Part shown: positions 3,017 to 6,257 of the stretch, in pieces
How the letters are laid out: each line of letters opens with the position of its first letter
Numbering within the stretch: the first letter of the stretch is position 1
Assembly (NCBI GenBank): GCA_017411665.1
Contig: JAFQPT010000388.1
Location: 1-6,503, forward strand
DNA length: 6,503 nt
From: Oscillospiraceae bacterium
Lineage (GTDB): Bacteria; Bacillota_A; Clostridia; Oscillospirales; Oscillospiraceae
Reading direction: 5' to 3'
The notes under the pieces: generated by a model
The model's input: only the letters and a program-made list of their open reading frames with translations
Databases searched by the model: none
Told to the model about the DNA's origin: nothing
Program-made: the position numbers and the translations under genes

Positions 3017-3029
3017 TTTTTGAGTAATG

Positions 3030-3080
3030 AACTCCCTCCTCCTTCCATGGGGGGAGGGAGTTTGTGCATTTTGATTTTTT
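3030..3080 (+). terminator. Strong hairpin between binding protein and permease (attenuator or mRNA stabiliser)
   Basis: AACTCCCTCC (3030-3039) pairs perfectly with GGAGGGAGTT (3053-3062). The stem extends inward by TCCT (3040-3043) with GGGG (3049-3052), including two G-T wobbles, around a 5-base loop. T-rich sequence follows, ending in a run of seven T at 3074-3080. Placed 14 bases after the binding-protein stop, it probably stops part of the transcripts and protects the upstream mRNA, giving more binding protein than permease. Confidence 0.65.
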
Positions 3081-4931: not shown

Positions 4932-4952
4932 TACCTATATTTAAATTTGGTG

Positions 4953-4983
4953 CCCAATGTTACTCCATTTCCATAGCGTTGGG
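4953..4983 (+). promoter_or_regulatory. Leader hairpin upstream of the ATPase gene
   Basis: CCCAATG (4953-4959) pairs with CGTTGGG (4977-4983), one wobble, around a 17-base loop. The loop contains CTCC (4963-4966) and ATTTCC (4967-4972), which can pair with GGAG (4998-5001) or GGAAAT (5001-5006) around the downstream Shine-Dalgarno-like sequence, as alternatives. No T tract follows, so it is not a terminator. Confidence 0.4.
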
Positions 4984-4986
4984 AGA

Positions 4987-5114
4987 ACCGTAAAAAAGGA
5001 GGAAATAATCCGCCCTGACCGGCGGTACAGCAGTGTGGAGACCTGCTGTAAAGCCACAGAGGTTTCGCTCTTCTGTGTGCGAGGAAGTACTTGCGGAGGC
5101 ATTGCTTCTACGGT
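4987..5114 (+). promoter_or_regulatory. Multi-helix structured leader before the ATPase gene (riboswitch-like, class unknown)
   Basis: A closing helix ACCGTA (4987-4992) with TACGGT (5109-5114) encloses four hairpins: CCGCC (5010-5014) with GGCGG (5021-5025); TACAGCAG (5026-5033) with CTGCTGTA (5043-5050); CACAGA (5055-5060) with TCTGTG (5072-5077); and GCGAG (5079-5083) with CTTGC (5090-5094, one wobble). The first two abut and could stack. Unpaired parts are an A-rich stretch with AAGGAGG (4996-5002) and a 14-base piece with GGAGG (5095-5099). The domain ends 3 bases before an in-frame ATG (5118) and 9 before the preferred one. The architecture resembles a riboswitch or protein-binding leader. 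It lacks a terminator, so control of translation is more likely. I recognise no known class. Confidence 0.5.
4996..5002 (+). promoter_or_regulatory. Displaced Shine-Dalgarno-like sequence
   Basis: AAGGAGG in an A-rich context, the best ribosome binding sequence in this spacer, yet 121 bases before the ATPase ATG at 5124. No ATG, GTG or TTG lies at the proper distance after it. The structured domain folds between it and the gene. Confidence 0.4.
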
Positions 5115-5123
5115 CAAATGTTT

Positions 5124-6257
5124 ATGGCAACTGTTAAACTTGAAGGTGTAAAGAAAGTATATGATAATGCTGTGACTGCAGTTCACAGCTTCGATTTGGA
5201 AATCGCTGACAAGGAATTTATCGTTCTGGTCGGTCCTTCCGGCTGTGGTAAGTCCACCACCCTGCGTATGATCGCAGGTCTGGAAGATATCTCCGATGGC
5301 GATCTGTTCATAGACGATGTTCGAGTCAATGATGTGGCTCCCAAGGATCGTGACATTGCGATGGTATTCCAGAGCTATGCGCTGTACCCCCACATGAGCG
5401 TTTATGACAATATGGCATTCGCTCTGAAGCTGCGCAAGATGGACAAGGAAGAAATTGATAGACGTGTACGTGTAGCGGCTGAAATTTTGGACATTACCCA
5501 GTATCTGGAACGCAAGCCCAAGGCTCTGTCCGGTGGTCAGCGTCAGCGTGTAGCCATCGGCCGTGCGATTGTTCGTGAACCCAAGGTATTCCTGATGGAC
5601 GAACCTCTGTCCAACCTGGATGCAAAGCTGCGTAACCAGATGCGCGCTGAGATTATCAAGCTGCGTCAGCGTATCGACACCACTTTCGTATATGTTACTC
5701 ACGACCAGACTGAAGCTATGACTCTGGGCGATCGTATTGTTATCATGAAGGACGGTTGGATCCAGCAGATCGGCACTCCTCAGGAAGTATTTGACCATCC
5801 CAACAACGTATTCGTAGCAGGCTTTATCGGCATGCCTCAGATGAATCTGTTCAACGGCAAGTTGAAGAACACCAAGGACGGCGGCTACTATGTGGAAGTT
5901 GGCGGTGCAAAAATCCCCGTCAGCGATGAAATCGCAAAGGGTTTGGCAAAGAAGGGCCATGTTTGGTCCGATGTTCTGGTTGGCATCCGTCCCGAACACA
6001 TTCTGCTCAAGGCAGAAGGGGAAGATGTCATCCACGGCAAGGTTGACGTATCCGAAATGATGGGTAGCGAAATTCATCTGCACGTTGCAGCAGCCGGCAA
6101 GGATGTTGTTGTACGCGTACCTACTGTTGATTTGTCTGCAGGCAACCGCGGTGGTTTCGCATACGGTAGTGACTTTAATTTCACTTTCCGTCCCAACGAA
6201 ATTCATTTGTTTGATCCTGCAAGTGAAAGAAACCTGCTTCCTTTGGTAAAGAAGTAA
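5124..6257 (+). CDS. Sugar ABC transporter ATP-binding protein, MsmX/UgpC/MalK type, 377 aa
   Basis: The ATPase that powers the CUT1 importer as a homodimer under the two permeases. All nucleotide-binding motifs are intact: Walker A G-P-S-G-C-G-K-S-T (37-45), Q-loop Q83, signature L-S-G-G-Q (135-139), Walker B V-F-L-M-D-E (155-160), D-loop S-N-L-D (163-166) and switch H193. Residues from about 240 form the C-terminal OB/TOBE regulatory domain, with V-G-I-R-P-E-H (286-292). Length is typical. I chose ATG 5124 because M-A-T-V-K-L-E is the usual family N-terminus; ATG 5118 adds two residues, and TTG 5091 (with GAGG 6 bases upstream) adds eleven unlike relatives. No normal Shine-Dalgarno sequence lies close to 5118 or 5124, which is odd for so well-conserved a gene. 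A separate promoter and structured leader suggest independent control, and it may also serve other importers, as MsmX-type ATPases do. Confidence 0.93.
   Translation: MATVKLEGVKKVYDNAVTAVHSFDLEIADKEFIVLVGPSGCGKSTTLRMIAGLEDISDGDLFIDDVRVNDVAPKDRDIAMVFQSYALYPHMSVYDNMAFALKLRKMDKEEIDRRVRVAAEILDITQYLERKPKALSGGQRQRVAIGRAIVREPKVFLMDEPLSNLDAKLRNQMRAEIIKLRQRIDTTFVYVTHDQTEAMTLGDRIVIMKDGWIQQIGTPQEVFDHPNNVFVAGFIGMPQMNLFNGKLKNTKDGGYYVEVGGAKIPVSDEIAKGLAKKGHVWSDVLVGIRPEHILLKAEGEDVIHGKVDVSEMMGSEIHLHVAAAGKDVVVRVPTVDLSAGNRGGFAYGSDFNFTFRPNEIHLFDPASERNLLPLVKK

Follow-up and report, generated by a model that had tools for sequence, protein, structure and literature searches.

The leader of the malK/msmX-type ATPase gene in the window (the whole 6,503-nucleotide stretch of Oscillospiraceae DNA analysed) is, judged by covariance-model matching, a malK-I RNA, and we regard this identity as settled. 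Comparison of relatives shows that in malK-I the Shine-Dalgarno (SD) sequence is displaced from the AUG by a folded domain. On balance we favour the view that the two form a split ribosome-binding site which would be bridged by a folded pseudoknot, with kissing between the loops of hairpins P0 and P2 and with translation of malK switched by a signal. The leader is probably a switch and, we infer, one in which folding turns translation on under control of that signal. If this is true, an orphan RNA family gains a concrete, testable mechanism, in which a fold of about 107 nt brings a distant SD to the start codon, and with it control over a probable shared sugar-importer ATPase in gut and rumen bacteria.

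Identification of the element

When the whole window was compared by cmscan with 4227 Rfam families, a single match exceeded its gathering score: RF03069, malK-I RNA (type Cis-reg), at 4945-5129 of the forward strand. The match is complete (model positions 1-181 of 181), scoring 128.6 bits against a gathering score of 60.3 with an E-value of 5.8e-25. Its 3' end lies six bases into malK, the AUG at 5124 of the UgpC/MalK-type ATPase gene thereby falling inside it. The original prediction, drawn on 4987-5114, had held that no known class motif fitted, which was wrong; since the element is already in Rfam, the claim of discovery falls. The boundaries were also misplaced, the conserved element beginning 42 nt ahead of 4987, with an extra 5' hairpin (P0), and ending beyond the start codon. 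No terminator was called on the forward strand within 4945-5123.

The downstream gene (5124-6257, forward strand, start ATGGCA) encodes a malK/msmX/ugpC-type ABC ATPase of 377 amino acids with ABC_tran, OB_MalK and TOBE_2 domains. It reaches 476 bits with the NCBIfam UgpC subfamily model (cut-off 432) and 424 bits with the MalK equivalog, below the cut-off of 568. The closest malK genes found are up to 78% identical, among them that of Flavonifractor sp. An92; that of Anaerotruncus colihominis is 76% identical.

malK-I has an existing entry among bacterial RNA families and no assigned function; the family reportedly stems from the Weinberg 2017 survey. The example in the window agrees with it in its full-length match of 128.6 bits and in its place ahead of malK. 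Among the papers searched, by the family names and by the accession RF03069, no functional study of it was found; one, PMC11507696, names malK-I as training data. The displacement of the SD and the kissing of P0 and P2 are readings made in the present analysis.

Conserved structure

The element consists, in order, of P0, an unpaired SD sequence, a pseudoknotted domain and the AUG, which usually follows 5-8 nt after the pseudoknot helix PK (101/111 elements). Over the whole malK-I structure, comprising 39 pairs, 80.4% of alignment cells are paired and 33 pairs show two-sided changes, with all five shuffle measures at 0/500; conservation and covariation in related leaders, a check that had been named beforehand, are therefore both present. 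P0, P1, PK, P2, P3 and P4 each contain pairs with two-sided changes among 46 divergent relatives; the four hairpins originally proposed, P1 to P4, are thus conserved. All the features described lie on the forward strand.

P0 (4949-4989) is made up of GGU 4949-4951 paired with ACC 4987-4989 and of 4953-4962 paired with 4974-4983. All 7/7 pairs counted have two-sided changes, and a swap test of its two ends gave 0/5000. P1 (5010-5025), the first hairpin of the original prediction, pairs CCGCC 5010-5014 with GGCGG 5021-5025. An earlier swap test of this helix used strands chosen for their pairing; the unselected swap, which is the fair test, gave 0/5000. P1 is in poor register on the MAFFT alignment, with 54.6% of cells paired.

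The loop of P1 contains the 5' strand of PK, UGACC (5016-5020), whose partner, GGUCA (5112-5116), lies 7 nt ahead of the start codon. Relatives pair here through GACUC/GAGUC, GGCUU/AAGCC, UUACCU/AGGUAA and CGUUC/GAACG, among others. The helix score was 5.26 with own partners against 3.64 with swapped ones, a value reached in 0/2000 permutations, and swaps on 81, 46 and 32 divergent representatives gave 0/5000 each. A set of 48 further elements yielded 4.94 against 4.07 (0/5000). The three inner PK pairs are formed in 46/46 sequences, with 40 two-sided changes. For P1 and PK together on the MAFFT alignment, three of five shuffle measures were 0/500, the other two, at 23/500 and 68/500, not being extreme. 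Comparison of these sequences shows P1 and PK to form an H-type pseudoknot, a domain of about 107 nt that holds P2, P3 and P4 in its long loop. The cmscan consensus line, by contrast, makes PK the closing helix and shows no pairing for P1 (CCGC/GCGG); Rfam may annotate pseudoknots elsewhere.

Within that loop, P2 (5027-5049; stem 5027-5033/5043-5049) has 99.8% of cells paired and two-sided changes in 5/9 pairs. P3 (5055-5077; stem 5055-5060/5072-5077) has two-sided changes in 6/6 pairs and, because its length is variable, only 53% and 73% of cells paired. P4 (5084-5108) has stems 5084-5087/5105-5108 and 5092-5094/5099-5101, with 90% and 93% of cells paired and two-sided changes in 7/7 pairs.

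The pairings of the original prediction can all be written on the sequence, and the stretch 4987-5114 does fold better than chance (MFE -51.8 kcal/mol against a shuffle mean of -37.4, z -4.1, 0/200 shuffles as good), its minus strand also giving z -3.1. The closed multibranch form did not survive comparison, the domain being an H-type pseudoknot, and nor did the 6-bp closing helix ACCGUA 4987-4992/UACGGU 5109-5114, which relatives fail to support. In 46 relatives of less than 65% identity, 31% of its cells are paired, fewer than in three of six slid registers; shuffles reached its pairing in 34/500 cases and its two-sided changes in 17/500. Own partners scored 3.72 and swapped ones 3.60, a result reached by 111/2000 permutations, and on 81, 46 and 32 divergent representatives the swap returned 1155, 3660 and 844 of 5000, respectively. 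Both strands have rival partners: for ACC 4987-4989 it is GGU 4949-4951, the two forming the base of P0, and for (C)GGUCA 5111-5116 it is UGACC(G) 5016-5021 in the loop of P1. When 4945-5123 is folded whole, the nested MFE structure adopts both of these alternatives and drops the closing helix (z -4.2, 0/200). Swap tests, slid registers and the fold including P0 being all against it, the helix was rejected.

A displaced Shine-Dalgarno sequence

Counts given out of 111 refer to all but one of the 112 distinct elements obtained from the first loci. The one omitted is L149, which carries AAAAGGAAAAA but in whose searched stretch the script detected no GGA. In the window the displaced SD, AAAAAAGGAGGA, occupies 4992-5003 between P0 and P1, with GGAGG at 4998-5002, 121 nt from the AUG. 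GGAGG is present in this stretch in 108/111 elements, and pairing of the far SD with CACCUCCUUU yields a median energy of -11.8 kcal/mol, the value being -6 or lower in 109/111. The two parts of the putative ribosome-binding site are separated by the conserved folded domain, the linear distance from far SD to AUG being 91-131 nt with a median of 118. The 22 nt ahead of the AUG, measured in the same way, have a median of -2.9 kcal/mol and reach -6 or lower in 15/111, which leaves 96/111 without a strong near SD.

Homologues of malK that lack malK-I behave differently. A strong SD lies near the AUG in 25/25 of them (median -10.5, p 1.7e-14), six control loci having been omitted from this first comparison because their match starts at residue 11. 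When these six were examined in turn, an ordinary SD was found in five. One of the five, L075, has it only if its start is TTG 1878, ATG 1920 having none; the sixth, L049, showed no in-frame start in the stretch examined. The ordinary SD of genes without malK-I makes the idea of a split site directly testable. In a second set of 48 elements the far SD was found in 47/48 and a near SD in 6/48; here whichever site between P0 and P1 was strongest counted as the far SD, a choice that favours it. Sequence comparison in this way shows the SD to be displaced from the AUG by the folded domain.

A leader gene served by the far SD was considered as a general feature and rejected: an ATG lies 3-12 nt behind the far SD in 1/111 elements and a start codon of any kind in 18/111.

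Folding of PK leaves 7 + 7 unpaired nt (medians) between SD and AUG, the sum being 10.5-18 in the middle 90% of elements, as against a median spacing of 9 nt in ordinary genes (the 17/25 controls that have GGAGG). This arrangement is the basis of the split-site model. No significant compensation was seen between the two linker lengths (Spearman -0.17, p 0.08).

Proposed action of the leader

In the unfolded RNA the SD, some 120 nt away, would be unable to serve the AUG. In the folded RNA the pseudoknot would bulge out, leaving about 14 unpaired nt between the two, and a single 30S subunit could then use both SD and AUG across the folded domain. The P0 loop would kiss the P2 loop and so hold the two flanks of the SD strand to each other. 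Translation of malK would then be switched by a signal, be it a small molecule, a protein or a condition, that favoured or disfavoured the fold. Several points count against such a split site. The linkers, at a median of 14 nt, exceed the ordinary 9 nt, and a coaxial P1-PK helix may lengthen the path; PK ends near the AUG and could also block the ribosome; and a fair SD near the AUG is present in 15/111 and 6/48 leaders of the two sets.

Related arrangements have been described in other systems. In T4 gene 38 a hairpin brings the SD and AUG closer, and in ColIb-P9 repZ a pseudoknot promotes translation; these are single small structures, whereas malK-I is a widespread multi-helix leader family. 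The preQ1-II and SAM-II riboswitches are compact, pseudoknotted translational riboswitches next to the start region in which the fold hides the SD; in malK-I, by contrast, the SD lies outside and upstream of the fold. For E. coli thrS, PMC3936740 describes how the ribosome landing site accommodates a folded hairpin, ribosome binding requiring a single-stranded region upstream of this one hairpin. In malK-I, unlike the arrangement described there, it is the SD itself that lies upstream, and what follows it is a multi-helix domain of about 107 nt containing a pseudoknot. Among the papers searched on split sites, or on pseudoknots placed between an SD and its start codon, no useful precedent was found beyond that one.

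The main rival to the split site is an OFF-type riboswitch or protein-bound leader, in which the folded PK next to the AUG would block the 30S subunit and the upstream SD would act, in the unfolded state, as a standby site. Like a riboswitch, the malK-I element is a conserved structured leader in cis to its gene, and the majority of known translational riboswitches act by making the start region more or less accessible. The 5-8 nt by which PK precedes the AUG in 101/111 elements would place it inside the usual 30S footprint. Against this, the model leaves the far SD unpaired, and the MFE structure of the window puts most of it in nothing more than a weak hairpin. Moreover, with the SD about 118 nt from the AUG in the absence of the fold and 96/111 elements lacking a strong near SD, the unfolded state should initiate poorly. 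We consider blocking an unlikely explanation, albeit one to be taken seriously.

A probable contact between the loops of P0 and P2

In the window the P0 loop, CUCCAU (4963-4968), is complementary to the P2 loop, GUGGAG (5035-5040), its proposed partner. CUCC is found in the P0 loop of 110/111 elements, as CUCCAC in 56 and CUCCAU in 41, and the script found GUGGAG in the P2 loop of 109/111, a count that misplaces L151, whose loop does read GUGGAG. With G-U included, six pairs can be formed between the loops in 96/110 elements, five in 11 and four in 3. On alignment A2 the kissing helix is 100% paired with no two-sided change, the last two letters not adjoining CUCC in rows with long loop inserts, such as L020. 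Within the malK set, the complementarity shows conservation, not covariation.

A joint change is seen in the two Anaerobranca members described below, where the P0 loop is CUCUAC and the P2 loop GUAGAG, both altered with pairing kept; the two pairs drawn by Rfam inside P2 (GU/AC) become GU/AA in these sequences. The two species are close, their noc proteins being 95% identical, so the joint change is to be counted as one event. Counting against the contact, L190 and L209 have AUCCAC in P0 opposite an unchanged P2 loop. From the conservation and the one joint change, a kissing contact between the P0 loop (CUCCAY) and the P2 loop (GUGGAG) is likely.

The same P0 loop could have another partner, CUCC (110/111) and GGAGG (108/111) being complementary over four bases: CUCC might serve as an anti-SD that sequesters GGAG in an off state, with the P2 loop as its competitor. 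This we think improbable, since the match with the P2 loop is longer, at six pairs in 96/110; since the P0 loop still fits that of P2 in L031, L103 and L190, whose SD stretch has no GGAG; and since P0 and P2 changed together in Anaerobranca while GGAGG stayed. Still less credible is that the loops containing GGA are CsrA binding sites. GGA does occur in the P2 loop and the SD, and GGAGG is also present in the P4 region of 80/111 elements, but CsrA (PF02599) was found in only 7/34 carrier genomes by a search whose control was positive in E. coli, B. subtilis and T. maritima (34 of 35 carriers were covered, G262, below cut-off, being omitted).

Gene context and distribution

Of 80 close malK homologues, 49 have malK-I above the gathering score; these carriers were assembled as 19 + 17 + 10 + 3 from 79 scanned loci, L080 being covered via its genome. 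Conversely, malK lies directly behind the element in 109/111 cases, and the original prediction was right to read it as a structured leader regulating an MsmX/UgpC-type ATPase gene in cis. The two exceptions are L136, which ends after 94 nt, and L138, where 197 nt yielded no match. Second copies fetched from 11 genomes have a malK paralogue behind them in 11/11. In the orders of a Christensenella and of a Solobacterium metagenome-assembled genome (MAG), BLAST placed malK behind the element in 37/39 loci, and in each of the remaining two a short frame opens with malK-like sequence. The second set of 48 elements excludes L160, which scores 47.3 bits, below the cut-off, and lacks malK; the re-analysis excludes L168-L171, which repeat earlier loci.

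A malE/malF/malG-like gene, sought as homologues of those in the window, ends within 150 nt upstream in 3/111 cases and lies further off in 5. In most carriers, therefore, malK is not grouped with such genes, in keeping with an ATPase that, like MsmX, is shared by several importers.

Genome sets were also scanned. These overlap and the large ones were scored with stricter filters, and their counts are accordingly not rates for a clade. Among species-representative genomes malK-I was found in 31/394 from the order of Flavonifractor sp. An92 (30 over cut-off), in 189/400 from its family (187 over cut-off) and in 8/247 from the family of Anaerotruncus colihominis. A phylum sample gave 3/398, two over cut-off, one of them Flavonifractor sp. 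An92 itself, while the Christensenella order gave 16/238 and the order of the Solobacterium MAG 20/234. None was seen in the 14 control genomes of these scans, nor in viral contigs searched with an exact 18-base pattern.

An intergenic palindromic repeat without function at malK, which the original prediction had named as the main alternative, is refuted by this distribution and can be given next to no credence: beyond the palindromes themselves nothing speaks for it, whereas each genome has 1-3 copies instead of many at unrelated sites, malK follows nearly all of them (109/111, 11/11 of the second copies and 37/39) and the stems carry compensatory changes.

Some members depart from the usual form. 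L160 (1501-1684, minus strand) has the 5' half of malK-I (P0, SD, P1 and P2) followed by unrelated sequence without a malK frame, and is perhaps a decayed or rearranged copy. L193-L210, from the order of the Solobacterium MAG, are shorter, at 148-174 nt, and several have a very short P0; CUCCAC and GUGGAG are kept in most. In L035, L033, L131, L154, L163 and L164, and in Erysipelotrichales loci such as L199-L208, the N-terminal part of MalK carries a lysine-rich insert, about 25 residues long or longer, which thus comes right after the malK-I start codon.

Members ahead of noc

The phylum-wide scan turned up two divergent members ahead of noc, the nucleoid occlusion gene: L166 (1501-1694, minus strand; 68.7 bits) and L167 (1501-1696, plus strand; 47.8 bits, below cut-off). 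The genes behind them match NCBIfam TIGR04285 at 342 and 341 bits (cut-off 315), and their products are identical to proteins of Anaerobranca gottschalkii (L166) and A. californiensis (L167). In L167 noc is flanked by rsmG (170 bits, cut-off 99.5) and a ParA-like gene, the latter assigned at family level, no equivalog cut-off being reached. No better Rfam family was found for either RNA by cmscan. SD, pseudoknot (AGCUC/GAGCU) and start codon follow one another in the same order as in the malK members. Two of 13 genomes from the class match, both of Anaerobranca, and no target gene besides noc was found in that class, nor in the loci from the Christensenella and Solobacterium MAG orders.

Since these divergent members precede noc, the signal need not be a sugar, as the original prediction of a sensor of sugar or energy state had suggested it might be, and the noc-linked member offers a lead to what it is. 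The noc members argue against a signal specific to sugars alone, but they represent a single lineage, in which the RNA may have been co-opted to answer a different signal. A fuller version of the split site, namely that it is clamped by the kissing loops and gives efficient translation only when folded, with the same device used before noc and maybe a general, non-sugar signal, we put forward tentatively, as plausible but somewhat short of an even chance.

Other features of the window

A strong inverted repeat at 3027-3065, in which 17 pairs were called, has the appearance of a terminator and lies between the genes for the solute-binding protein and the first permease; its effect may be a higher level of binding protein than of permeases. 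Positions 1044-1487, ahead of the transporter operon, carry a YhcH/YjgK/YiaL (DUF386) gene whose product scores 90 bits with the NCBIfam N-acetylneuraminate anomerase model, below the cut-off of 160, and the substrate of the importer may be an amino sugar or sialic-acid-like. On the opposite strand, 132-812 encodes a GDSL-like lipase/acylhydrolase.
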